Source: Sphingorhabdus sp. 109 (GTDB lineage: Bacteria; Pseudomonadota; Alphaproteobacteria; Sphingomonadales; Sphingomonadaceae). Taken from it: a DNA stretch of 64,000 bases. The position numbers and the translations under genes are program-made. Below are positions 739-44,829 of the stretch, piece after piece. The notes beneath the pieces are model-generated. The model saw only the letters and a list, made by a program, of their open reading frames with translations, did no database searches and had not been told where the DNA came from. The stretch spans positions 520,001 to 584,000 of the forward strand of contig NZ_LR732707.1 of the NCBI RefSeq assembly GCF_902506555.1, written 5' to 3'. Within the stretch, counting starts at the first letter, position 1. Every line of letters begins with the position of its first letter.

Positions 739-2319
739 ATGACTGAGCAGAGCAATATAAACCAACTGAGCGCCCAGGATGCCCAGTTTCTCTATATCCA
801 GTCCGCCACCAATCTCACGCACGTGATGGCGGTCTATATCTATGATCCCTCGACCGCTCCCGGGGGGAAGGTGCGATTCAAGGACATCATCGAACATATG
901 CGCAAGCGGATGGATGTCTCGCCGATGTTCAAACGGAAATTATACCGCCTGCCGCTGGATATCGATCATCCTTACTGGGTCGAAGACGAGCATTTCGACC
1001 TCGAGGCGCATATTTCACACAGCCGTTTGCCGGAACCGGGCGACTGGCGGCAATTCTGCATCCATGTCGCACGTCATCACAGCAAACCACTGGATATGAA
1101 CCGGCCGCTCTGGGACATGTATGTCGTGGAAGGGCTTGATAATATCCCGGGCTATGCCAAGGGCAGCTATGCCATTTTGACCCGGATTCACCATTCCACC
1201 ATTGACGGTGTTTCCGGGGCGCATTTCTTTGCCGCGATCTCCGACAAGGATCCGCATGGCACGCCGGCCATTCCATTGCCCAAGACCAAGGCCAGTGCCA
1301 ATGCCCTGCCAACCACCGCCGAAATCCTGAATCGGGCGATCAACAGCACCGTCACCTCGCCGGTAAAGCTGACTCAGGCTTTGATGAAATTCACGCCGGC
1401 TCTGCTTTCCTCGGCACAGAAAAGTCTCACGGGCGGTGCCGACAAGACCGAATCCGGCGTTCCCCAAACGCGATTCAATGCAGCGGTTACGCCGCACAAA
1501 ATGTTTGATGCGATTACTTTTGATCTAGAAGAACTGAAGCAAATGCGCCGAAAGGTGCAAGAGGCAACAATCAATGATGTAGTGCTGGCAATCTGCAGCG
1601 GGGCGCTGCGCCATTATCTGACCAAGCACAAGGAACTTCCGGACGAGCCGCTGGTTGCCGTCGCTCCGGTTAATGCTCGCAGCCGGTCCGGTGAAGAATC
1701 CAATCCGGGTACCAATATATCGGCAATGACGATCAAGATCTGGTCGAATATCGAGGACCCGATCGAACGGCTCGAAGCGATCCGGGATACGACTCGCGAA
1801 ACCAAAGCGGCGAAGTCCGGGCTCAGCGCGCGGATCATGACCGATCTGTCAAAACATATTCCCGGCGTGACGATGGCCGGTGTTTCGCGGATATTGACCG
1901 ACGAGCGTTTCGCTCCGAAAATGAGCAACCTCATGGTTTCCAACGTTCCGGGGCCGCAAATACAGCTCTATATGAACGGTGCCAAGCTGACCCATCAATA
2001 TGGTCTGGCCCCTCTGGCTCACGGAATGGGCCTGTTTATTGCCACGCCGAGCTATAACGGGACGATCTCGTTCAGTATCATCTCGGATCGAAAGATAATG
2101 CCTGATATTGAGTTTTTCAGGGAATGCCTGCAAAAGGCGTTCAATGAACTACGCGATGCGAAGCCGGGGAAGGTCGTCCAGCAACCCAGAAAGGCGAGCG
2201 AGGCTCCGAAAAAGCAGCCTGTTTCTGCGGATGGTTCGGTGATGTACCGGCGGGTTGCGAAAAAGCCGCGGGCGGTTGTTTCGAAACAGCCCGGCGGAGC
2301 CAGATCGAAAGCAAGTTAG
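739..2319 (+). CDS. Wax ester synthase / diacylglycerol acyltransferase (WS/DGAT)
   Basis: A 526-residue protein with the WS/DGAT active-site motif HHxxxDG at residues 151-157 (HHSTIDG), a PLW motif near residue 123 and an ND-type motif near residue 278 (INDVVLAI). The family transfers acyl groups from acyl-CoA to diacylglycerol or fatty alcohol, making triacylglycerol or wax ester at the membrane. The last ~50 residues are a Lys/Pro/Ala-rich, probably disordered basic tail that is unusual for the family. The ATG at 739 has an AAAGGA ribosome site 8 bp upstream. It lies between a PlsB-type acyltransferase and a patatin lipase, so synthesis and turnover of storage lipid appear to be encoded together. 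Sequence does not decide between wax ester and triacylglycerol as the main product. Confidence 0.9.
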   Translation: MTEQSNINQLSAQDAQFLYIQSATNLTHVMAVYIYDPSTAPGGKVRFKDIIEHMRKRMDVSPMFKRKLYRLPLDIDHPYWVEDEHFDLEAHISHSRLPEPGDWRQFCIHVARHHSKPLDMNRPLWDMYVVEGLDNIPGYAKGSYAILTRIHHSTIDGVSGAHFFAAISDKDPHGTPAIPLPKTKASANALPTTAEILNRAINSTVTSPVKLTQALMKFTPALLSSAQKSLTGGADKTESGVPQTRFNAAVTPHKMFDAITFDLEELKQMRRKVQEATINDVVLAICSGALRHYLTKHKELPDEPLVAVAPVNARSRSGEESNPGTNISAMTIKIWSNIEDPIERLEAIRDTTRETKAAKSGLSARIMTDLSKHIPGVTMAGVSRILTDERFAPKMSNLMVSNVPGPQIQLYMNGAKLTHQYGLAPLAHGMGLFIATPSYNGTISFSIISDRKIMPDIEFFRECLQKAFNELRDAKPGKVVQQPRKASEAPKKQPVSADGSVMYRRVAKKPRAVVSKQPGGARSKAS

Positions 2320-2400
2320 GGAGCGGATTGTTTTTGCGTCGCACGATGGACGGGCGACGCGCGATACCATGCGTAATCTTGGTGAAAGAGTGAATAGAAT

Positions 2401-3867
2401 ATGATCCTGAACACGACTTTGAAGATGGAAAAAGCGATGGCCCAGGCCAACAGCTATTCCGAATGGTCGAAAGCGGCGAAAGCGCACGACAAATCCACCG
2501 GAGTCGATATTTGGAAGGCATCTGATGAAAGCAAGCATTTCGATCATGCCTCCATCCGCCGTCGACTGAAGCGTCTTTCCAGGCTCTGGAAAGAGCAGGA
2601 CAATGCTGGGCTACTATATGCTTTGAACGAGGGCATTCACGGCAATATGGATGGCATGGGGCACGCCCGGCTCCATCAGAAGGCCAAATTCGGCACCAAA
2701 CAGCTGATCCAAGATTATGTCGACGCGATCGCCAATTCGCTCGAATATCTGGCGAGCGACAAGGTCACCGATATCCCGTTCGAGGAAAAACTCGATTTCT
2801 TTCGCCGGGCCCAGCATTGCTACGGACGGTCCGCCTTTCTGATGAGCGGCTCCGGCGCCTATCTCTATTTTCACGTCGGGGTGGCCAAGGCGCTTTGGGA
2901 AGAGGGACTGCTGCCTGATATCATGTCCGGCTCCAGCGGCGGATCGGTTGTTGGTGCATTGATCAGCACCCACACGGACAAGGAGATTCCGCCATTCTTC
3001 AAACCGGAAAATCTGATTATCGGACCGGAGCATGAAGAAAGCGATGGTTTTCTGGGCGGTCCCAGCCGGATGCGGGCCGACGAGATACGCCAGCGACTGT
3101 CGGACATGCTTCCCGATCTTACGTTTCAGGAAGCCTATGAGCTGACCGGCCGGCATCTGAACGTATCGATTGCGCCGGCGGAAAAACACCAGACTTCGCG
3201 CCTGCTCAATGCCATTGCATCACCCAATGTGTTCATTCGCGAGGCGGTCCTGGCCTCCTGTGCGGTTCCGGGCGTTTACCCGCCGGTGACTCTGGCGGCG
3301 AAAGATCACCGCGGCGAGCGGGTCCCCTATCTGCCCAACCGCAAATGGGTCGATGGTTCGGTTACGCACGATCTGCCGGTCAAAAGACTGGCGCGGCTTT
3401 ACGGCGTCAATCATCATATCGTCAGCCAGGCCAATCCGCTGGTCACGCCGTTTGCGACGGATGTCAGCCAGTCCCGCAATCCGCTTTCCTCTATCCGCAA
3501 TGCCTCAACCGCTACGATGAAGGCCTGGCTCAACGCCAATGTGGAGATCATGCAGAAACCCTTGTCCTATTTTCCAAGACTGAACAGCATGGCGAATATG
3601 GCGCTGTCGGTGATCAATCAGGACTATACCGGTGACATCAATATTATCCGGCCGACCATGTTCTGGAGCCCGTCCAAGCTTCTGAGCAACCTGCCGGTCG
3701 AGGATATTGCCGAACTGATCCAGCTCGGCGAGCGCACGACTTGGCCGAAAATTGAAATGGTCCGGACCCAGACCAAAATCAGCCAGACGCTGGACAGGAT
3801 ATTGTTCGAATATGAAAATGAACTGGCGCATGATCACGAACTGGTCGTTAAAAGGAAAATCGCTTGA
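2401..3867 (+). CDS. Patatin-like lipase with N-terminal DUF3336 domain
   Basis: 488 residues. The N-terminal ~140 residues are the helical DUF3336 region found in triacylglycerol lipases of the Tgl3/Tgl4/SDP1 type. The patatin domain follows, with a Gly-rich oxyanion segment (SGSGAYLYFHVG), the nucleophile elbow GSSGGS near residues 176-181 and the Asp of the Ser-Asp dyad in WVDGS near residue 317. These enzymes hydrolyse acylglycerols. GAAAGAG lies 10 bp before the ATG at 2401; in-frame ATGs at 2425 and 2437 are alternatives. The stop overlaps the TTG start of the following hydrolase by 4 bp (TTGA), so the two are probably co-translated. In context it is likely the first enzyme mobilising the lipid made by the upstream WS/DGAT. 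Confidence 0.88.
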   Translation: MILNTTLKMEKAMAQANSYSEWSKAAKAHDKSTGVDIWKASDESKHFDHASIRRRLKRLSRLWKEQDNAGLLYALNEGIHGNMDGMGHARLHQKAKFGTKQLIQDYVDAIANSLEYLASDKVTDIPFEEKLDFFRRAQHCYGRSAFLMSGSGAYLYFHVGVAKALWEEGLLPDIMSGSSGGSVVGALISTHTDKEIPPFFKPENLIIGPEHEESDGFLGGPSRMRADEIRQRLSDMLPDLTFQEAYELTGRHLNVSIAPAEKHQTSRLLNAIASPNVFIREAVLASCAVPGVYPPVTLAAKDHRGERVPYLPNRKWVDGSVTHDLPVKRLARLYGVNHHIVSQANPLVTPFATDVSQSRNPLSSIRNASTATMKAWLNANVEIMQKPLSYFPRLNSMANMALSVINQDYTGDINIIRPTMFWSPSKLLSNLPVEDIAELIQLGERTTWPKIEMVRTQTKISQTLDRILFEYENELAHDHELVVKRKIA

Positions 3868-33241: not shown

Positions 33242-35272
33242 ATGACAAAAGCCATTATGCTCGCCGGGGCAGCATCACTGATGACATCAGCAGCATTCGC
33301 GCAGACTCGCGATAGCGAAAATCCCAAAGATTCGATTACGCGCGAAATTACCTTCGATATTCGCGCCGAGCTGGTTGATGAGAACACCCGCACAGTTGAG
33401 CTCAGCTTCTCTTCCGAAGAGCCTTATGAGCGGTGGTGGGGAACAGAAATTCTGGATCATGGCAAATCCGCTGTCGAGCTTGGTCGCTTGAACGGATCTG
33501 CTGCGCTCCTGATGGACCATAATATCCGTGATCAGGTGGGTGTTGTGGAAAAGGCCTGGTTGAAGGGCAAAAAAGGTCGCGCGCTGGTCCGATTTGGAAA
33601 ATCCGCCCGCGCCGATGAAATTTTCAATGATGTCAAGGATGGCATCCGCAAGCTGGTCAGCGTCGGTTACCGCATCAAAAAACTTGTTCTTGAAAAAGAG
33701 GAAGATGGTGAGTGCACCTACCGCGCACTTGAATGGGAACCCTATGAAATCAGCCTGGTTTCGGTTCCCGCCGATACCACCGTGGGTGTGGGCCGCGATG
33801 GTGAAATCAAGGATTTTGATCCCCGAACTTTAGTCAATGAAGAGGAAGAAGATATGTTTAACGGAACTCGTGATGGTTCGGGCAATGGTCCGGCACCAGT
33901 TGTAACCCCGTCTCCTGCGCCGGCCCCTGCGCCAACCGCACAGCGCGATAATGGTGATAATGGACCGGCCCCCGTCGATGTTGCCGCCTCCAACCGGACG
34001 GCCGTGGAGGCCGAACGGGCGCGCATTGCCAATATTCGTGCCATGGGCCAGCGGGTCGGTGCCACCGAATTGGCAGATGCTGCGGTTGCAGATGGCCGGT
34101 CGGTGGACCAGTTCGTCAGCGATTTCAATGCGCTGTCGCCGGATAGTCAGGCCATTCGCACAGCGGAAGATCCGGCAATCGGATTGAATGGCAGCGAGCG
34201 GAACAACTACAGCTTCGTTCGCCTGCTCAACGCCATCGCGAATCCCCAGGACCGCCGGGCACAGGAATCTGCTGCATTTGAAATTGAATGTTCGAATGCC
34301 GCCCAGGCGCAGCGTTCGGATGGCGAGATGCGCGGATATACCGTGCCGGTCGATGTCTTGCGTCCGTCGCGAGAAGGTTCCCAGCGTGATCTGGTGGTTG
34401 GCACCACCACGGCAGGGGGGCACACTGTTGCAACGGATTTGCTGGCGGAATCGTTCATTGATCTGCTGCGCAACAATATGGCGCTGCATGGTCTCGGAGC
34501 ACGGATGCTGACCGATCTGAACGGTAATATTGCTATTCCGCGCCAGACCGGTGGCGCCACGGCATATTGGGTGGCTGAATCCGGCGCGCCGACTGAAAGC
34601 CAGCAGGCGTTTGACCAGGTGTCGATGACTCCGAAAACGGTTGGCGCCTATACCGATATCAGCCGCAAATTGCTGTTGCAAAGCTCGATCGATGTGGAGG
34701 CGTTTGTCCGTCAGGATCTGGCGGTCACATTGGCTCTTGCTATCGATCTGGCCGGCATCAACGGATCCGGAAGCTCGAACCAGCCCCGCGGCGTGTTGAA
34801 CACCAGCGGCATTGGTTCGGTGGTTGGTGGTACCAACGGTGCCGCGCCAGACTATGCCGATATTGTTGGCTTGGAAACGGCTGTCGCCGTCGATAATGCG
34901 GCGATTGGTAGTCTCGGCTATCTAACCAACAGCGCGGTTCGCGGGAAGCTCAAGCTGACTGAGAAATTTGCCGGCACCAACGGTAACCCGGTGTGGGAAG
35001 ATGGAAACAATCTGAACGGATATACTGCAGGTGTTTCCAATCAGGTGCCTTCCAATCTGACCAAGGGAACCGCGTCGAGTGTCTGTTCGGCGATCATGTT
35101 TGGTAACTGGGCTGACCTGTTGATCGGCATGTGGGGCGGGCTTGACCTGATGGTTGATCCATTCACGAGCTCGACCAGCGGAACGGTCCGGATCGTGGCC
35201 CTGCAGGATGTTGATGTGGCGGTGCGCCATGCTGAATCCTTCTCCGCCATGGTGGATGCGCTGACCGCTTAA
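33242..35272 (+). CDS. Fused prohead protease - HK97-type major capsid protein
   Basis: 676 residues, two capsid genes in one frame. Residues ~25-195: U35-type prohead protease with His93 (LLMDHN) and Ser140 (KLVSVGYRI). Residues ~200-290: acidic/Pro-Ala linker and coiled-coil scaffold-like segment. Residues ~300-676: HK97-fold capsid protein (RGYTVPVDVL, PRQTGGATAYWVAESG, SRKLLLQSSIDVEAFVRQDL, GSGSSNQPRGVLN). An in-frame ATG at 33854 (residue 205) has GAGGAAGAA just upstream and could give a protease-free capsid precursor. The first ~20 residues look like a Sec signal (LAGAASLMTSAAFAQ), very odd for a cytoplasmic protein. Terminated by a strong hairpin. Confidence 0.92.
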   Translation: MTKAIMLAGAASLMTSAAFAQTRDSENPKDSITREITFDIRAELVDENTRTVELSFSSEEPYERWWGTEILDHGKSAVELGRLNGSAALLMDHNIRDQVGVVEKAWLKGKKGRALVRFGKSARADEIFNDVKDGIRKLVSVGYRIKKLVLEKEEDGECTYRALEWEPYEISLVSVPADTTVGVGRDGEIKDFDPRTLVNEEEEDMFNGTRDGSGNGPAPVVTPSPAPAPAPTAQRDNGDNGPAPVDVAASNRTAVEAERARIANIRAMGQRVGATELADAAVADGRSVDQFVSDFNALSPDSQAIRTAEDPAIGLNGSERNNYSFVRLLNAIANPQDRRAQESAAFEIECSNAAQAQRSDGEMRGYTVPVDVLRPSREGSQRDLVVGTTTAGGHTVATDLLAESFIDLLRNNMALHGLGARMLTDLNGNIAIPRQTGGATAYWVAESGAPTESQQAFDQVSMTPKTVGAYTDISRKLLLQSSIDVEAFVRQDLAVTLALAIDLAGINGSGSSNQPRGVLNTSGIGSVVGGTNGAAPDYADIVGLETAVAVDNAAIGSLGYLTNSAVRGKLKLTEKFAGTNGNPVWEDGNNLNGYTAGVSNQVPSNLTKGTASSVCSAIMFGNWADLLIGMWGGLDLMVDPFTSSTSGTVRIVALQDVDVAVRHAESFSAMVDALTA

Positions 35273-36878: not shown

Positions 36879-38114
36879 ATGGTTGATCCAATTATTCGCC
36901 CACGCAATGTGGCCATGCTGTTCAAGCTGGAATCGACGCAGGGTACGGACGCTGCGCCCGGTGTCAGTGATGCCTTTCCATTCGAGGCAGACGGGTACAG
37001 TTATAATGCGCCCTACACCAACGAGGCGAGCAACGAGGTCAATGGCACCCTGGTCGATGCTGCTCCGTTGATTGTCGGGCAACCAGCGGAAGTCAGTATC
37101 CGTGTCCGGATGAAAGGTATCGGCGGAAGCTCTGCCTATTCTGCATCGATCAAGCCGCCGCATCACAGCCTGTTGGAAGCATGCGGAAAACGTGGTGTGT
37201 TCACAGCGGCCATTGCTGCAGCGTCCCTGACTGCAGGAACCACGACCAGCGCGACGCTGGGCACCGGTTTTGCGACGGTGGCGCAATCCTATCGCGGGAT
37301 GCCGCTGATCCTGTCGGGCGGTAGCAGTGGTGGCCGCACGGTGCATGTTGCAGACTATAGCGCGGCGAAGGTCGCTACCTTGACTGACGTTTTCGGTTCG
37401 GCGCTCACGGTTGCGGGATCCGCTGCGCTTCCTGCGAACTGGACGTACGCCGGGACATCGCCCAAGGATGTAGCCTCGCGCGCGACTGACCATCCAACCG
37501 GCACCTTGTATATTTACGAGGATGGATCCCTGCATAAATTTGTCGGCTGTCGTGGCAGCATATCCGACTGGTCCGGCAATACGGCGCGCCCGGGCTTTAT
37601 GACGTTCAACCTGATGGGCATTTATGCCGGCAAGACCACGGCGGCTATCCCGACCGTGACAATTCCGCAGCATAGCGCGCCGGTGCTGGCTATGGGCAAT
37701 GGCGGCATCAATCCGGCGTTGCTGGTCAACCGCAAGGAATTGCGGATCAGCAATTGGGGAATATCGGAAAGTGCCAACAAGGAAGTGATCGACGATCCGA
37801 ACACGCCATTCGGCTTCGGGTCTCCGGAAATTGCCGGACGGACGCCGCTGCTCACCATCGATCCGCTGACCACCCATGTCGAAAATCGCAATACGATCGC
37901 GGAAATGGAGGCGGGAACGGAATATAGCGGCGTGATCCGGATGGGTAATACCGCGCAAAACCGCGTTTCCATTACCTTCCCGAAATTGTTGCCGGTAGAT
38001 CCCGCGGTTGGGCAGCGCGGTATCGCGCGAACCGAGCAGCTGGGTCTGCGGGCATTGACCGCCGGGCCGGATGCGTCGCTTCGTGATTCAGACTCTATCC
38101 TGTGTTACAGCTGA
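36879..38114 (+). CDS. Major tail tube protein
   Basis: 411 residues, preceded by AGAGGAG. PRNVAMLFKLESTQGTDAAP at the N-terminus is typical of phage tail-tube subunits, and the central Gly/Ser/Thr-rich, Ig-like region (~100-200, TTTSATLGTGFATV) looks like an inserted surface domain. Ends by TGATG overlap with the tail chaperone gene, the order seen in lambda (V, G, T, H). Polymerises into the long tail tube. Confidence 0.78.
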   Translation: MVDPIIRPRNVAMLFKLESTQGTDAAPGVSDAFPFEADGYSYNAPYTNEASNEVNGTLVDAAPLIVGQPAEVSIRVRMKGIGGSSAYSASIKPPHHSLLEACGKRGVFTAAIAAASLTAGTTTSATLGTGFATVAQSYRGMPLILSGGSSGGRTVHVADYSAAKVATLTDVFGSALTVAGSAALPANWTYAGTSPKDVASRATDHPTGTLYIYEDGSLHKFVGCRGSISDWSGNTARPGFMTFNLMGIYAGKTTAAIPTVTIPQHSAPVLAMGNGGINPALLVNRKELRISNWGISESANKEVIDDPNTPFGFGSPEIAGRTPLLTIDPLTTHVENRNTIAEMEAGTEYSGVIRMGNTAQNRVSITFPKLLPVDPAVGQRGIARTEQLGLRALTAGPDASLRDSDSILCYS

Positions 38115-38806
38115 TGATCGGTACCAGCACAAGCAAAACAACGCCCTATTCGCCGCCATGGCTGCGCGACCGGAAAAACCCTCCAACCTTTCATCTGCGC
38201 ACCGCTTCGACGCTGGAGCGTGACGCGTTCGAGGCGGAACTGGAGGGTGTCCACAATGCCGGGGCGGTCTATGACGTCGTCGTCCGCGAAATCACCATCG
38301 CCGGTGTCCGCGCGCTGGCGGCAGAAGATGACCAGGGCCGGTTGATCGATCTTCTGGATCAGGAGGCGGCTCTCGACAAAGGTGATGAGCTTTCAACGGA
38401 GGAGGCCGCGTTGTTGCGTGGGCTGCGGGAGGTTCTGTCCCTTCACTGGCCCGAGTATCGAGCCATCCAGGCGCAGGTTTCCCGGCGAAACAAATTGCTG
38501 CCGACGCTGGCGTTCATGACATTTTGTAGCGGTTGGAGCGACGTCACCGGCAATGATGGCGAGCCCCTGAAGTTTGCAACCAATGCGCTCGGCCAGATTG
38601 ACGAGGATGTGCTGCGCCGGGTTCCCCATATCATGCTGCACGTTACCGGTATGCAGGCCTATTCCATGCAATATGGATCCGGAGAGGCAAAAAACTCCGC
38701 GCCGCTTTCGAAGTCATCCGGAAACCAGCAGACTTCGACTTCGGGCGGCGGATCAACAAAGGGTGGGAAATCGCCGGCGAAATCTGGGAAGAAAATCCCA
38801 AAATAA
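38114..38806 (+). CDS. Tail assembly chaperone, zero-frame product (gpG-like)
   Basis: 230 residues from ATG 38114. Located between tail tube and tape measure genes, as lambda G. It ends with a Gly/Ser/Lys-rich tail, and its last two sense codons are part of a perfect slippery heptamer C CCA AAA followed immediately by TAA. Translation in this frame gives the shorter chaperone; -1 slippage adds 64 residues (see separate entry). Chaperones of this type bind the tape measure protein during tail assembly. Confidence 0.8.
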   Translation: MIGTSTSKTTPYSPPWLRDRKNPPTFHLRTASTLERDAFEAELEGVHNAGAVYDVVVREITIAGVRALAAEDDQGRLIDLLDQEAALDKGDELSTEEAALLRGLREVLSLHWPEYRAIQAQVSRRNKLLPTLAFMTFCSGWSDVTGNDGEPLKFATNALGQIDEDVLRRVPHIMLHVTGMQAYSMQYGSGEAKNSAPLSKSSGNQQTSTSGGGSTKGGKSPAKSGKKIPK

Positions 38807-38997
38807 TCCTGCCGAAAAATATCATCAATATCGCTTTGCTGTGGTTCCGGCTGCGGCGAAACGGGGGAGGCGGGCTGATCGCGTCCCAACCCATGTTGCC
38901 ATGTACTGGCGGGTTCGGGGATCAGCCCGCTGCTTTGATGGATGCGTTCGAGATGCTGGACGGGTTTGCGGCGGAAGGTAAAGGCGATGTCGAGTAA
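38114..38997 (+). CDS. Tail assembly chaperone, -1 frameshift product (gpGT-like)
   Basis: 230 zero-frame residues followed, after -1 slippage on CCCAAAA at 38797-38803, by 64 residues from an otherwise startless frame: IILPKNIINIALLWFRLRRN, then GGGGLIASQP, MDAFEMLDGFAAEGKGDVE and TAA at 38995-38997. The extension is open for its full length, ends 8 bases after the next gene's ATG, and occupies the position of lambda T. The fused GT protein is expected in small amounts relative to G. Confidence 0.8.
38797..38803 (+). promoter_or_regulatory. -1 ribosomal frameshift site
   Basis: Heptamer CCCAAAA read as C CCA AAA, fitting X XXY YYZ, one codon before the zero-frame stop TAA at 38804-38806. 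Confidence 0.8.
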
Positions 38998-39676
38998 AGC
39001 CGAAATCGAGATAGAGATCGATGAACGGCAACTGACCGAGGTTGAGCGGGAGGTTGTCAGCTTTGTTCTGAAATCCGGTGTGCGGGCGGTCAAGGCGACC
39101 ACTCGCGGGCTGGAGCGGGAATTCGAGGCGCTGACCCGGGCAAAGGTCAAGGGGAAGGCGTGGCGGGCATGGAAGTCCACCGCCTTTCCCAAGGCCGATA
39201 TCGGCGCCTATGACCCGGTTGGTACGGTGTTTATCAACGGCGGCAACCGGTCGCGTGGCATGGTGCTGTATTTTACCACGCCGGGCATCAATCGGGCAAA
39301 GCGTGGCGAATATCTGGCGGTGCCACTGGGTGCCGCGGTCAACACGGCCAAGGGCCGGGATATCAGTCCGCGTCAATGGGAAGGGCGCAATGGCGTGAAA
39401 TTGCGGCCGTTGTTCCGGCCAGGTGAAACGCCGTTGCTGGTCGCGGACGGGGCGGTGACATCGACCGGCGCGTTCCAGGCAATGGATCCGGGCCGGTTGC
39501 GCGCCAAGCAGCGGGGCGGACAGAATTTGAAGCGGGCAACGGTGCCGATTTTCGCGCTGCTGACCGATCAGGATCATGCGAATAGTGTCAGCCTGTATCC
39601 TGCAATCGTGCGGGGACGGGCCGATCTGGTGACGAATTTTAGGAGGCGGATAGGTGCGCGGAACAATGAGGATTGA
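38987..39676 (+). CDS. DUF6441-like tail-region protein
   Basis: 229 residues from ATG 38987, overlapping the end of the frameshift extension. ERQLTEVEREVVSFVLKSGVRA, AWKSTAFPK and GAYDPVGTVFINGG resemble the DUF6441 family commonly found beside siphophage tail chaperones. Basic, with alternating helix and strand. Role unknown; structural or assembly function is likely from position. Confidence 0.65.
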   Translation: MSSKAEIEIEIDERQLTEVEREVVSFVLKSGVRAVKATTRGLEREFEALTRAKVKGKAWRAWKSTAFPKADIGAYDPVGTVFINGGNRSRGMVLYFTTPGINRAKRGEYLAVPLGAAVNTAKGRDISPRQWEGRNGVKLRPLFRPGETPLLVADGAVTSTGAFQAMDPGRLRAKQRGGQNLKRATVPIFALLTDQDHANSVSLYPAIVRGRADLVTNFRRRIGARNNED

Positions 39677-39727: not shown

Positions 39728-40300
39728 ATGAAAAAGATAGTATTTTTGTTATTGTTGATCCTGCCTATTTCCAGCTATGCTCAACAGCCTTCTTCAAGCT
39801 ACTCGGGATCTGTCCAGATAGAGCGCGACGATTTTAAGAGATTCAATGCAATCCTTGGTCCTAATGTTGTTATCGCCGATAGAGGTCTGGATTCTCCAGA
39901 ATATTATCTGATGGGACTATATTCGAAAGAGGGAATTGGGAAATATTTGACGTTAACCGTCAGGTCTAGCTCGTACTTCCGGTCCGAATATTATTCAATT
40001 AATATGCGGGGTGGTGAAGCGTTGGAATTGTCCGGACGTCCGTCGAGTAACGTGATAAGCTGTCGTCGAAGACAGTGTAACTATTTACTGCATACTTCGG
40101 CGAAAATCCCATTCAGCGTGGCTTTCTCAGACGAAACATTGAGGGCCGGGTTGGAGTTGAAGGCTATAAATGCTGTCGATGATCTTCAGTTCCATATCCC
40201 TGGAGAATATTTTTCTGCAATGTTGGCGGCGTTTATTTCAGTTGGTCATGATCCAAGGCCAGCACTGCCAGACGCCTCAACGCCTCCGGGCGAGAAATAG
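39728..40300 (+). CDS. Exported protein of the cargo cassette (putative moron)
   Basis: 190 residues with a clear Sec signal peptide: KK, hydrophobic IVFLLLLILPISS and cleavage expected after SYA (SYA-QQ). The mature part is beta-rich with a Cys pair (C in ISCRRRQCNY) and no family I recognise. Codons are visibly AT-richer than those of the surrounding tail genes. It lies between tail-assembly and tape measure genes where no structural gene is needed, so it probably is a lysogenic conversion or superinfection-exclusion protein. Its 3' end overlaps the convergent RHH gene by 68 bp. Confidence 0.65.
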   Translation: MKKIVFLLLLILPISSYAQQPSSSYSGSVQIERDDFKRFNAILGPNVVIADRGLDSPEYYLMGLYSKEGIGKYLTLTVRSSSYFRSEYYSINMRGGEALELSGRPSSNVISCRRRQCNYLLHTSAKIPFSVAFSDETLRAGLELKAINAVDDLQFHIPGEYFSAMLAAFISVGHDPRPALPDASTPPGEK

Positions 40301-40436
40301 CTTCTTCCTGGTGAGATATCCAGGCGTCCAATTTTGCTAGCAATTCAGGGGGAACGCGAACCGCCAGTTGAGTGGCATCTACTCGGGGTCGCCCGCGACC
40401 TCTTTTTTTTCTCGTATCATTTATTGACGTGACCAT
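40233..40436 (-). CDS. Ribbon-helix-helix repressor
   Basis: 67 residues. N-terminal KKRGRGRPR, the beta-strand TQLAVRVPPEL and two helices (LLAKLDAWISHQEE, RPEALRRLAVLAL) make the RHH/Arc-CopG fold. The only minus-strand gene within the late region. The 14-bp inverted-repeat arms that flank its start codon suggest it represses itself and the rightward antirepressor gene, as Arc or Mnt do in P22. Confidence 0.8.
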   Translation of the reverse strand: MVTSINDTRKKRGRGRPRVDATQLAVRVPPELLAKLDAWISHQEEAISRPEALRRLAVLALDHDQLK

Positions 40437-40493: not shown

Positions 40494-40517
40494 CTAACCT
40501 GCAACATGGAGCAAGCC

Positions 40518-40769
40518 ATGCAACAAGCTATCACGATAATTAGCACAGATGCCGAATGCGCGTCATCCGGTATTATTCATTCTCTTGCCGCCCCGGCAAA
40601 AAGCCGGTTGGAGGATATTGAACGGCGGCTTCGCCATACGAACGTCCTGATCGGCACATTGATCACCCACGCGGATGTCAGCGATGAAATGGCATCATTG
40701 TTGATGTGCATTGGTGAGAATGTGAATGGAGCGCGTCTGATCGCCGAGCAGCCGGGGGCAGGACTATGA
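40518..40769 (+). CDS. Small hypothetical protein ahead of the antirepressor
   Basis: 83 residues from ATG 40518 (GGAG 6 bp upstream; ATG 40506 would lack a ribosome site). Helical, with SRLEDIERRLRHTNVLIG; no family. Its stop overlaps the antirepressor ATG (ATGA). Confidence 0.5.
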   Translation: MQQAITIISTDAECASSGIIHSLAAPAKSRLEDIERRLRHTNVLIGTLITHADVSDEMASLLMCIGENVNGARLIAEQPGAGL

Positions 40770-41524
40770 GCGACCTGGCATTGCAAAGCTTTGGCTTCGA
40801 GGATCATCTGGTGAGAGTGATCGATCAGGCTGGTGCACCGTGGTTCATCGCGCAGGATATTTGTGCGGTGTTGGAAATAAACAACCACAGACAGGTTGTC
40901 TCTCGTTTGGATGACGATGAAAAGGGCGTCACTATTAGTGACACCCTTGGAGGGAGGCAGGAAGTTTCGATTATCTCTGAATCGGGTCTTTACGCTCTGA
41001 TCTTTAAAAGTCGGAAGGCGGCGGCGGTCCGGTTTCGCAAATGGGTCACATCGGAAGTGCTGCCCACCTTGCGGCGGACGGGCGAATATCAGATGCCGGT
41101 CGCGAATGATGATGACCGTCCGGTGATATTGCCGTTTCTGGATTCCGCCGATGAAGTGGACCGGTTCCGGTCGGCTCTGGCGGCGGTCAGGGAATGCCGG
41201 ATCGTGCACGGGCGCAGCAAGGCAAAGCGGCTTTGGCCTATCTTGGGGTTGCCGGAAGCGCCGAGGATAAGCATGAATGGCGTGCCGGAATTGAGCGCGC
41301 CGCGCAGCCGCAATATTGCCCGGTGGGCGGAGGAGCGGTTGGCATTCGAACCTGGCGCCCGGATCGCGGCACATGAGCTCCGCGATGATTATGAAAATTG
41401 GTGTGAGGCCAATGATGTATGCGCGGAGGGTGTCCAGATATTCTGGAAGTGCCTGACCGATTTTGGATATGCAAGTTTCCACAGCAATGGAAGCTGGCGA
41501 CGGGATTGCCGTCTAAAAGACTGA
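40766..41524 (+). CDS. Bro-N family phage antirepressor
   Basis: 252 residues. Residues 1-105 are a typical BRO-N domain (VRVIDQAGAPWFIAQDICAV, ISESGLYALIFKSRKAAAVR, FRKWVTSEVLPTLRRTGEY). The C-terminal half is a different domain with GYASFHSNGSWRRDCRLKD, similar to C-terminal regions of antirepressors and primases. Antirepressors bind and inactivate the lysogeny repressor. The RHH gene upstream, the operator and this gene together look like an immI-type switch. A strong terminator follows. Confidence 0.82.
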   Translation: MSDLALQSFGFEDHLVRVIDQAGAPWFIAQDICAVLEINNHRQVVSRLDDDEKGVTISDTLGGRQEVSIISESGLYALIFKSRKAAAVRFRKWVTSEVLPTLRRTGEYQMPVANDDDRPVILPFLDSADEVDRFRSALAAVRECRIVHGRSKAKRLWPILGLPEAPRISMNGVPELSAPRSRNIARWAEERLAFEPGARIAAHELRDDYENWCEANDVCAEGVQIFWKCLTDFGYASFHSNGSWRRDCRLKD

Positions 41525-41595: not shown

Positions 41596-44500
41596 ATGGC
41601 TGGTGAAAGTGATATTCTTGTCCGCCTTCGCCTGAAGGGTGAGGAGTTTAGCGCGGGCGTTAAGGATGCTTTTTCCGGTGTTGGTGATGAAGCGGAGAAG
41701 GCCGGCAGTGATGCCGGTGACCGGATGGCGAAGGGGTTTACCGCGAAACATGCTGCATTTGCAGCGGCGGGGGCTGCGGCCTTTGGATTGTTGGTCAAGG
41801 CGGTTAATGATTCGGTCGATCTGGGTGCCAATATCGCCGCATCGGCGCAGCAGATCGGGATCGGCACAGATGCCCTGCAGGAATATCAATATGTCGCCGA
41901 ACAGGTTGGTGTGTCGCAGAGTGAATTGGAAGGGACGCTGCAAGAGCTGACCCTGACTATCGGAGAGGCAGCGTCCGGCAACAGGAAGTTTACCGAAGGA
42001 TTTGCTGAACTGGGTATCGCGTTGACCGATACCGAGGGGCGCGGACGCACAACCGATCAAGTGTTTCAGGATATTATTAAAACGCTGGGCGCGATCGAGG
42101 ATCCGTCCGAGCGCGCGCGGATCGGTACCCAGTTACTGGGAGAGGAATATCAGCAGCTTGAACCGATATTGGCACTCGGCGCGGACGGCGTTAGCGAACT
42201 GACCGATCGGCTATACAGTTTGAACGGGGTGTTGTCCGAAGAGGAAATTCAAAAGCTTCAGGAAACCAACGCCAAGTTCGACGAATTGCAGCGGATATTA
42301 TCAATTAATATTGCCAGCACGGTTGCCGAAAATGCAGAAAGCATTATTTCCCTATCCAATAGTCTCGCCGATCTCGTAAAATGGCTTTTAACTGCGCATG
42401 ATGCCTATAAACGTTTTTGGATCGCAGCCGGTCAAAAAGTCGATGGTATGCAGGGATGGACGGTCCTCGGTAAAGAGGCTCCGGGAGAGGCCGCGGCGCT
42501 TGCCAGGCTACATTACAAACAGCGGCAAGATTATCTAGATGGGCCCGTCGCCGGTTCTGCATCGGGCATATTCGGCGGAACGACTCCTGGTTCTGTAAGA
42601 TATGGATCCGACACCCCGCGAACTGTTACACCCCCCGGCGGTTCATCTAGAGGTCGCGGGTCGCGCAAGTCCGGAGCATCCGCTGAACAGCGTGAGCAGG
42701 AGCGTGCGGCGAAGGCTCTGGCTAAGGAATATGAGCGCCTGGAGGGTTCCCTCGACCGACAGGTTGAATTGTTGCAGGATGCCTCGGAAATTGACGAAAT
42801 AAGGCGTACCAAGGGTGAACTTGCCGCCGAGATTGCCAAGAAGCATCTGGATATCGAGCGGCAGTTCCCGACGTTGGTGGGTAAGTCCGCCGATGCAGTG
42901 GCCGAGCGATACAATATAACGGTGGCCGAGGGCCAGCAACTGCTCGACAATCTGGCGCTGACCAAACAGATGGCCGAACAGGCTAGCCTGGAAAAATGGT
43001 ATGATCTGCAGGATAGTAATTTCAATGAAGCGATAGCCGATGCTGAAAAGCAGATCATTGAATCGCAAAAACGTGTCGCGGAGCAGCAGAGGCGGATTCA
43101 GGAGGAGCAGCTTCGCGACATCTCGGATTTCTATTACGATCTGTTTTCCGGCAACACCGGCAATATCTGGAAGGATTTCAAGAGGCAGGGTCTGGGTGTA
43201 ATCTCCGATATCGCCGCGCAATGGACGCTGGCGCTATTGGCCGGAAAAGATACGTCCTTGGCCACCATCGCCGGCAATGTGATGGGTGGCCCGTTCCCCG
43301 GTGGCGGATCGCCATTGGGAAGCCTGTTAGGGGCTTTGTCCCCCGGAGGTAGTTCTGGTCAGGCAGCAAATGACAATTATCCGGTAAGTGGAGAGGCTCT
43401 GCGTTGGTATGAGCAGAGCATATTGCCGGGTGATCAGCCAAATAGCGCTCCTTCTAATGTGCCGGAGCCAATCAATGCGGGTTTCTCCAGTATTCTGGGG
43501 GGAGCGGGTATCGGTTTTGGTGTGTCCTCTTTGTCAGAGGTTTTGGGTCTCGATGGTTCCAGCACTGGCGGCGCGATCGGTGGCGCAGGAGGGTCGGCAT
43601 TGGCAACTGCATTGTTTGGGGCTGGCGCGGGTCCGATCGGCGCGGCTGTTGGTGGTTTGCTGGGCTCTATCGTCGGGGGAATGCTCAAATCCACGAAGCG
43701 TGGGTCGGCCATTATCGGTGGTGTTGGTGATGGTCTTGGAATTACCGGATATTACGGGAACAGCAGTTCCCGTAAAGATGCTGCTGGCGGATTGGCGGGA
43801 TCTGCGCTTGATAGTATCTCGTCTATTGCTGAGGCCCTGGGCGGCAATGTAAATTCTGCAAACGGACTGGTTTCCATAGGAATAAGGGATGGGAACTATC
43901 GCGTCGACCCGCAGGGTCGCGGATATACAAAGACTTCAAAATATCACGATGTCATGGACTTTGGCGAAGATCAGGAGGCCGCGGTTCGTGCAGCTATCGC
44001 CGATCTGATAGGCGACGGGGTCATCGAGGGTATTTCCGATGCATCGCAGAAAATTCTGCGCAGTGGTCAGGAAATAGAAACTGCTATCGAAAAAGCCGTG
44101 ATGATCGAACAGTTGCCTGATCTGTTGCAGCAGCGGCTTGACCCGTTGGGGTATGAGCTGGACCAGATTTACGACAAGTACAAGCAGCTTGCCGACGTTC
44201 TGCGTGAGGGCGGAGCGAATGCAGAACAATTTGCCCAGGCACAACAATTGTGGGAACTGGAAAAAGCAGATGCAATCGCCGCGATTGGCGGCGCTAGCGA
44301 CGGTTTGAAGGAATTTCTGTTGTCGCTAAACGCCGGATCGGGAAGCCCGTTATCCTTGCGGCAGCAGCAGGTAGAGGCAGAGGCCGCTTTGGCCCCCTAT
44401 ATTGCCCAGATCAGGGAAGCGGAGGCCGCCAAGGCCGAGCTGGACCGTTTGCGCGCGGCAGGCGGGAGTGCGTCCGATATCGAGGCAGCAGAAACGGCGG

Positions 44501-44829
44501 CACGAATCGCTGCGCAGAAAATCGACCAGAGCGGGTTCCAGGACAGCGGGTCATTGCTGCTCAACATCTCCCGCCAGATTGATGCGAGCGGCGCCGGATT
44601 TTTCACCCAGTTTGACCGTATCCGTGATCTTACCAATAGCGCGATTTCGCTGATCGACAATGCGGTGCCAATCCGGGATGCGGCGCAGGATCCGTTTACC
44701 GAAGCGACCGCCAATATTTTGAGCGATCACACCGATTTACTGCACAGCATCAACGATAATCTGGTCAAATATCTGTCGGGCAGCACCAATGGTTCGTTTG
44801 ATTCGCGCAACTATGCGGTGTCACGATGA
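41596..44829 (+). CDS. Tail tape measure protein
   Basis: 1077 residues: N-terminal VRLRLKGEEFSAGVKDAFSG as in TMPs, hydrophobic segments (~55-75 AAFAAAGAAAFGLLVKA and ~655-690 SALATALFGAGAGPIGAAVG), then a coiled-coil middle (~370-510) and a Gly-rich region. Length predicts a tail of roughly 160 nm by the usual 0.15 nm per residue. Gene order (chaperones, tape measure) is preserved except for the inserted cassette. Ends by ATGA overlap. Confidence 0.9.
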   Translation: MAGESDILVRLRLKGEEFSAGVKDAFSGVGDEAEKAGSDAGDRMAKGFTAKHAAFAAAGAAAFGLLVKAVNDSVDLGANIAASAQQIGIGTDALQEYQYVAEQVGVSQSELEGTLQELTLTIGEAASGNRKFTEGFAELGIALTDTEGRGRTTDQVFQDIIKTLGAIEDPSERARIGTQLLGEEYQQLEPILALGADGVSELTDRLYSLNGVLSEEEIQKLQETNAKFDELQRILSINIASTVAENAESIISLSNSLADLVKWLLTAHDAYKRFWIAAGQKVDGMQGWTVLGKEAPGEAAALARLHYKQRQDYLDGPVAGSASGIFGGTTPGSVRYGSDTPRTVTPPGGSSRGRGSRKSGASAEQREQERAAKALAKEYERLEGSLDRQVELLQDASEIDEIRRTKGELAAEIAKKHLDIERQFPTLVGKSADAVAERYNITVAEGQQLLDNLALTKQMAEQASLEKWYDLQDSNFNEAIADAEKQIIESQKRVAEQQRRIQEEQLRDISDFYYDLFSGNTGNIWKDFKRQGLGVISDIAAQWTLALLAGKDTSLATIAGNVMGGPFPGGGSPLGSLLGALSPGGSSGQAANDNYPVSGEALRWYEQSILPGDQPNSAPSNVPEPINAGFSSILGGAGIGFGVSSLSEVLGLDGSSTGGAIGGAGGSALATALFGAGAGPIGAAVGGLLGSIVGGMLKSTKRGSAIIGGVGDGLGITGYYGNSSSRKDAAGGLAGSALDSISSIAEALGGNVNSANGLVSIGIRDGNYRVDPQGRGYTKTSKYHDVMDFGEDQEAAVRAAIADLIGDGVIEGISDASQKILRSGQEIETAIEKAVMIEQLPDLLQQRLDPLGYELDQIYDKYKQLADVLREGGANAEQFAQAQQLWELEKADAIAAIGGASDGLKEFLLSLNAGSGSPLSLRQQQVEAEAALAPYIAQIREAEAAKAELDRLRAAGGSASDIEAAETAARIAAQKIDQSGFQDSGSLLLNISRQIDASGAGFFTQFDRIRDLTNSAISLIDNAVPIRDAAQDPFTEATANILSDHTDLLHSINDNLVKYLSGSTNGSFDSRNYAVSR

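Follow-up and report, generated by a model that had tools for sequence, protein, structure and literature searches.

Background

The tail assembly chaperone of phage lambda exists in two forms, gpG and gpGT, whose role is described in the available part of one report (PMC5009743). The lambda genes lie between those for the tail tube and the tape measure protein, and a tandem slip heptamer yields a short zero-frame product and a long -1 fusion. Here we describe a locus resembling it in these respects, in a prophage of Sphingorhabdus sp. 109 (contig NZ_LR732707.1, positions 520,001 to 584,000; this whole stretch of 64,000 nucleotides (nt) is called the window, and positions are counted from its first letter). 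Comparison with relatives points, with a probability that we put at about 92%, to a programmed -1 frameshift at the heptamer A AAA AAC (38689-38695) in the prophage G gene, giving gpG and a gpGT that carries a T extension of 100 residues.

Similar sites have been described elsewhere. For the chaperones of phiCbK and related Caulobacter phages, which also belong to Alphaproteobacteria, the available part of one report gives AAAAAAC as the site, and GGGAAAC in Colossus (PMC3556154); we liken them to the present locus by their slip sites, from the description only. In the gp12/gp13 pair of Acinetobacter phage Loki, AAAAAAC adjoins the stop codon of the first gene, according to the accessible portion of PMC5313236. 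Loki, also likened by description, thus resembles those members of the present family whose G gene ends at the heptamer, with a different host and different proteins. For haloviruses, AAAAAAC, GGGAAAC and GGGAAAG are the sites given in the portion of the source available.

The Rhodobacter phages RcSwan and RcOceanus have an annotated joined chaperone, with in-phase GGGAAAC 97 and 94 nt before the G stop, respectively, so that a long overlap of G with T is not new. Their clusters also include a fusion of capsid protein and protease, as well as a DUF6441-like gene. Unlike the window, their G proteins have 152 and 151 residues, G and T are unrelated by eye, and the DUF6441-like gene precedes that for the tail tube instead of following T. 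Synechococcus phage MinM1 (ON981384) contains a probable homologue of T (35% identity, covering 89% of T, at a weak E of 0.02), preceded by AAAAAAC and an immediate TGA and followed by DUF6441; its T is annotated only as an 84-codon hypothetical protein with an internal start, and the joined product is not listed in the record.

Compared with lambda, the G gene of the window runs on for 36 codons past the site as a hydrophilic tail, there is no match to a described family, and T is separated from the tape measure gene by a DUF6441 gene plus a putative repressor/antirepressor cassette. Judged from its sequence, the system is of a known kind, lambda gpG/gpGT-like, in an unrecognised family.

A conserved heptamer in the G gene

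Removal of duplicates and one false match left 30 distinct loci, the window included, 26 of them found via G and four via T only. The G proteins diverge to as little as 17% identity. L002, L003 and L004 came from a search of viral contigs with G and show 82-89% identity. Counting the window's own genome each time, a match to G or its profile was found in 5 of 396 genomes at the level of the order, 7 of 385 at that of the class and 15 of 397 at that of the family, and a search of 60 near relatives matched only the window's own genome. Scanning with T gave 59 pattern matches, of which 8 were confirmed; these lie in Sphingomonas, Sphingobium, Altericroceibacterium and two genomes that are less well defined. 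Places met repeatedly (L007, L008, L009, L013, L015, L016 and L017) each entered the count a single time. L038, which nearly duplicates L030 within one genome, is one of the 30 and was left out of the wobble-base test described below, and L004, cut by a contig end, was left out of both dual-coding tests. The false match, L023 (G467), was dropped before counting; it reached E 3.9e-5 with the G profile and has five internal stops, and by eye it resembles the ribosomal protein L15 region.

An in-phase heptamer stands at one homologous point in all 30 loci, A AAA AAC in 24 and G GGA AAC in six. The script that located T sites listed only those with a T of at least 70 codons containing [DE]Q[PAC]; for the 26 loci found via G, in-phase heptamers were listed also without this filter. 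Upstream of the site (150 G codons, 30 loci), AAAAAAC or GGGAAAC occurs in phase at none of 4440 codon junctions, and any in-phase XXXYYYZ occurs at four of the same junctions. Lysine is encoded in these G genes by 91 AAG and 28 AAA, and only 8% of codons end in A; nnA AAA AAC is therefore an unlikely spelling.

In the window the heptamer lies 115 nt before the G stop. An earlier note on this DNA had placed the shift 108 nt further downstream, at C CCA AAA, and had predicted a 64-residue extension. That heptamer does stand in the G frame directly before TAA (38797-38806), a perfect X XXY YYZ, and it recurs in L002 and L003. It turns out, however, that CCCAAAA is in phase before the G stop in these three loci alone, 3 of 30 against 30 of 30 for the upstream heptamer, and a lack of conservation of the heptamer in relatives was among the things that the note had named beforehand as speaking against its proposal. 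We rejected CCCAAAA as the shift site on this ground. In L004 the proline codon is CCA, a change silent in T, and the in-phase CCCAAAA is gone. Furthermore, T is conserved for 34 codons upstream of CCCAAAA, in 5 of the 30 loci those codons lie beyond the zero-frame stop, and the codon periodicity changes earlier, at the upstream heptamer. A shift at CCCAAAA giving gpG and a 64-residue extension is thus very improbable. The motif is one spelling of the N-P-K of T (AAT CCC AAA), and we judge it a by-product because this coding explains it.

It is also unlikely that both heptamers are used, with CCCAAAA as a minor extra site producing a second, shorter fusion. The two are in phase together in the window, L002 and L003, and weak slippage at CCCAAAA is compatible with our computed results, but the shorter fusion would miss the first 36 residues of T, which are conserved and confidently modelled, and again N-P-K coding accounts for the motif.

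The zero-frame stop does not follow the shift site at once in the window prophage, as the note had it, and comes 36 codons later. It does directly follow the heptamer in five of the 30 loci (L018, L020, L026, L030 and L038), and in MinM1; in all of these T lies wholly beyond the zero-frame stop, including, in the five short-G loci, the segment homologous to 38695-38803 of the window. The kind of system that the note proposed, a programmed -1 frameshift producing a gpGT-like chaperone, is well supported by the comparison, and so is its lambda-T-like position, between the tail tube and tape measure genes; the note erred in the motif, in where it lies and in how long the extension is. The corrected motif, a T of 100 rather than 64 residues and the resulting junction peptide would decide whether a bench test succeeds.

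The T frame

The -1 frame of the window is open from 38602 to TAA 38995-38997. The startless frame of the earlier note is thus open as stated, but it does not begin at CCCAAAA; after AAAAAAC it comprises 100 codons (38695-38994). It is also conserved in relatives, which the note had named as a supporting check, and this from the upstream site onwards. The frame is open from the site in all 30 loci, and T has 91-112 residues in 28 of them, the exceptions being L022, which runs on to 148, and the truncated L004. In L022 (1779-2225) the T frame lacks its usual stop and runs into what by eye resembles the end of the DUF6441 gene, which suggests an internal deletion in that prophage.

Among 29 aligned members, MinM1 included, T is conserved from the heptamer on, through the region of DQPAALMDAF. 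K1, L2, P12, P70 and Q78 are invariant, and F15, W25, P36, G73, L82, A85 and F86 nearly so. Substitutions between close relatives fall mostly on G third positions upstream and on T third positions from the heptamer on, overlap included. Between the window and L002, changes at G positions 1/2/3 (position 2 being the T third) number 26/14/84 upstream, 2/6/2 in the overlap and 3/18/4 in T alone; between L028 and L029 the corresponding numbers are 1/1/9, 0/5/0 and 0/10/4. The T third position leads in 7 of 8 pairs after the heptamer and likewise in 7 of 8 in T alone; the pairs share sequences and are not independent.

We weighed whether T could be a separate gene read from an internal start codon, with the heptamer a coincidence. 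The MinM1 record has an 84-codon gene that starts inside T, and the T of the window contains internal methionine codons. Against this, the conservation of T starts at the heptamer, and internal starts would omit its conserved first part. In the window, no open reading frame of at least 60 residues that has a start codon (ATG, GTG or TTG) terminates at 38997, so that the first 40 or so codons of T have no start of their own. With the heptamer in 30 of 30 loci and at none of the 4440 other junctions, a separate T gene is extremely improbable.

Runs of A are known sites of polymerase slippage in bacteria, and some relatives have seven A. Slippage of RNA polymerase on the six A, in place of a ribosomal slip, would give the same frames. 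The site is GGGAAAC in 6 of the 30 loci, however, a canonical ribosomal tandem-slip site without an A run, and what is preserved is the X XXY YYZ pattern in zero-frame phase. We therefore give this explanation next to no credence.

The analysis establishes that the heptamer, the T frame and the evolutionary switch of frame are conserved, and it establishes the gene order; the slippage itself, its rate, the role of a hairpin and the functions of both products are inferred. Most ribosomes would read the prophage G gene to TAA 38804 and release gpG, whereas a small fraction would slip back one base on A AAA AAC, perhaps aided by the hairpin, and continue in the -1 frame to TAA 38995, producing gpGT. 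Of the 230 residues predicted for gpG, the last 36 form its private tail; gpGT would have 294, the first 194 shared with gpG and the other 100 from T. By analogy with lambda, gpG would coat the tape measure protein, gpGT would in addition recruit the tail tube protein, and both would leave the finished tail.

Decoding, predicted folds and family membership

Downstream of the heptamer, a candidate stimulatory hairpin (38700-38750) has a folding z of -3.2 against dinucleotide shuffles, and its region only -1.5 against codon shuffles over a longer stretch. The stem, derived from the window's own fold, was evaluated in 14 sphingomonad sequences, where it is paired in 80.5% of cells, compared with 29-49% when slid. 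Among 500 shuffles, three reached its percentage paired and four its covariation score, and 36 and 54 reached two other measures. A second downstream pairing (columns 24-29 with 54-59 of A7) was rejected, showing no excess over shuffles. The hairpin may play a part among the closest relatives; it does not characterise the family.

The A-site codon is AAC in all 30 loci. This uniformity may stem in part from the invariant leucine of T, because its codon begins with the C of the heptamer. Of 38 tRNA matches in the host genome 30 became tRNA loci, which include tRNA-Lys UUU, tRNA-Lys CUU and tRNA-Asn GUU; as the host has both lysine tRNA genes, AAG may be a worse choice here than in E. coli.

The AlphaFold model of G (residues 1-194) has a mean predicted local distance difference test score (pLDDT) of 87, and that of T a mean of 79, with 87-92 by blocks of ten over its first 50 residues. 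When the G model was aligned with 970 chains by VIA-align, YqbN (3klu), which we take to be a tail assembly chaperone, came first, with Z 6.5 over 95 residues; 2ob9, the tail assembly chaperone of HK97, was fourth, with Z 4.0 over 92 residues. Among the best 50 of 298 Foldseek matches of G to viral models, six name a tail assembly chaperone (ranks 1, 4, 6, 18, 25 and 28), none of them significant.

Several results weigh against a frameshift at the upstream heptamer or against its products being tail chaperones. The G profile was cut at the heptamer, and its last two columns (K-N) already contained the site. Two pairs depart from the substitution pattern, L030/L038 after the heptamer and window/L004 in T alone, with one change each, neither of them at a T third position. 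The folding z over the 30 loci ranges from -4.15 to +1.49, being at most -1 in 15 of them and above 0 in seven, and the RNAalifold consensus of 14 sequences is weak (-1.2 kcal/mol). According to the available part of PMC5009743, A_AAA_AAC shifts far less readily than A_AAA_AAG in E. coli, and that of PMC4066793 presents slips from AAC to AAA as probably less well tolerated by bacterial ribosomes; the AAC of all 30 loci stands in contrast to such E. coli work, which, as far as these excerpts go, calls AAC a poor slip site. The VIA-align Z values are middling, below the level at which helical matches can be trusted, and do not prove a shared fold. Foldseek found no match to the G model at E 0.001 in PDB or viral models, and three to the T model in PDB, none with E below 6.9. 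Pfam and PHROGs together, at E 0.01, matched none of 28 G and none of 29 T sequences.

Other searches gave little more. NCBIfam matched none of 29 T and 1 of 28 G sequences, the latter being the window's G with a lactonase model (E 0.0047), which we attribute to chance (16.5 bits against a cut-off of 400). Searched against annotated phages, the window's G matched nothing at E 0.01, and its T matched one, MinM1, as given above. The T profile matched 10 human immunodeficiency virus envelope sequences (best E 5.7e-4), in which no single stretch passed and which we judge to be chance, and the G profile gave six weak matches, of which the best has E 0.026 and none is named as a tail protein. In the literature, the matches listed contain no report of the G/T family or of a selected gpG tail, with most subscription papers lying outside the search. 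The present loci define a tail chaperone family, mainly of Alphaproteobacteria, in which the scanned members have no Pfam or PHROGs match at E 0.01.

A probably dual-coded gpG tail

We consider it rather probable that the frameshift chooses between two evolved C-termini. Where G runs past the site, the gpG tail of about 36 residues would then have been selected in its own right, not arising simply from T coding, to be hydrophilic and probably disordered, with an overlap that is truly dual-coding. This proposal draws on the composition of the overlap. That the zero frame stays open past the site is not beyond chance given T (25 tailed loci, P of an equal or longer tail 0.18 to 1), and openness was dropped as evidence of selection; the signal was carried by composition.

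The wobble bases of T in the overlap of 24 loci are 56% C, 21% A, 18% G and 5% T, compared with 37% C, 9% A, 40% G and 14% T beyond it. The shift begins at the heptamer, and usage is normal again from the G stop on; short-G loci, which have no overlap, for the most part do not show it. With the amino acids held fixed, wobble C exceeds expectation in 24 of 24 loci, slightly in some, and the observed/expected ratio in the overlap is 0.46 for G and 1.30 for C. The same part of T in five short-G loci is near expectation in both (G 0.98, C 1.09), with wobble T low there too (0.59).

Resampling of synonymous T codons that kept the zero frame open gave tails with 18% hydrophobic residues, whereas the gpG tails have 5%, below the mean in 24 of 24 loci and at or below the 5th percentile in 18. 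The tails are richer than the resamplings in Ser/Thr (33% versus 23%; 23 of 24 loci reach the 95th percentile or exceed it) and in Asp/Glu (7.8% versus 1.4%). The notional tails of the short-G loci have a high Ser/Thr percentile in L020 and L030 (0.97 and 0.99) and one of 0.43-0.79 in the other three. The controls comprise five short-G loci per test from few lineages (MinM1 entering the wobble-base test, and L038 that of hydrophobicity and the shift boundary), and the 24 tested loci are related, so that these counts are not independent. Should the proposal be true, the tail could maintain the solubility of an abundant gpG or prevent it from behaving as gpGT does, and the question of an evolved tail on the non-shifted product would extend to other phages with long G-T overlaps.

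Gene order and neighbouring genes

The features of the locus are given in Table 1. The order of tail tube gene, G/GT, DUF6441 and tape measure gene is as expected for a tail chaperone, G/T lying between the tail tube and tape measure genes, with DUF6441 and other genes also intervening before the latter. The TGA of the tail tube gene overlaps the G start as ATGA. In L002 the tape measure match starts 334 nt after the DUF6441 match.

Table 1. Features of the prophage tail locus and nearby genes (window positions)
Feature	Position	Strand	Remarks
Major capsid protein gene	33242-35272		Phage_capsid E 3.3e-49; PHROG 617; Peptidase_S78 E 7e-4, just under cut-off
Tail tube (major tail) protein gene	36879-38114	+	Pfam Phage_tube_2 E 2.4e-4, under curated cut-off; PHROG 290 minor tail protein E 1.6e-6
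G gene, zero-frame tail assembly chaperone, 230 residues	38114-38806	+	ATG 38114, TAA 38804-38806
A AAA AAC heptamer, proposed true -1 shift site	38689-38695	+	In phase; homologous in 30 loci
T, -1 frame extension, 100 codons	38695-38997	+	CTC 38695 to TAA 38995-38997
Dual-coded stretch (candidate)	38696-38803	+	gpG private tail, 36 residues, Ser/Thr/Gly/Lys-rich, over first third of T
Candidate stimulatory hairpin	38700-38750	+	4-nt spacer from heptamer; minimum free energy -25.4 kcal/mol
CCCAAAA heptamer	38797-38803	+	Judged by-product of T codons for N-P-K
DUF6441 family gene	38987-39676	+	PF20039 E 1.8e-5, just under curated cut-off; PHROG 6367 E 5.1e-9
Gene for 190-residue protein	39728-40300		No significant Pfam or PHROG match
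Weakly RHH-like protein gene	40236-40436	-	RHH_1 E 0.07; cassette
Gene for 87-residue protein	40506-40769	+	Cassette
Bro-N antirepressor-like gene	40766-41524	+	E 4.5e-24; cassette
Tail tape measure protein gene	41596-44829	+	PHROG 8462 tail length tape measure protein E 6.6e-26

The ATG of the DUF6441 gene lies 8 nt ahead of the T stop codon, and because of this its translation may be coupled to frame-shifted ribosomes. Between DUF6441 and the tape measure gene is a cassette of three genes, the RHH-like, the 87-residue and the Bro-N genes. In relatives, at E 1e-3, all three are present as close matches in L003 and as distant ones in L010, two in L011 and none in L002 and L013; given this patchy presence, the cassette has the appearance of a mobile immunity module within the tail operon. 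In the MinM1 record (L073, 1-6000), a gene annotated as an Arc-type repressor (1017-1691, minus strand) and a gene with a P22_AR_N domain (2057-2458, plus strand) stand just upstream of the apparent G gene, a comparable module in a different part of the tail cluster.

The 190-residue protein, also encoded inside the tail operon, has a signal-peptide-like start (MKKIVFLLLLILPISSYA), and its gene is possibly one of lysogenic conversion. The major capsid protein is apparently fused to its own protease domain, and such fusions are annotated in Rhodobacter phages.
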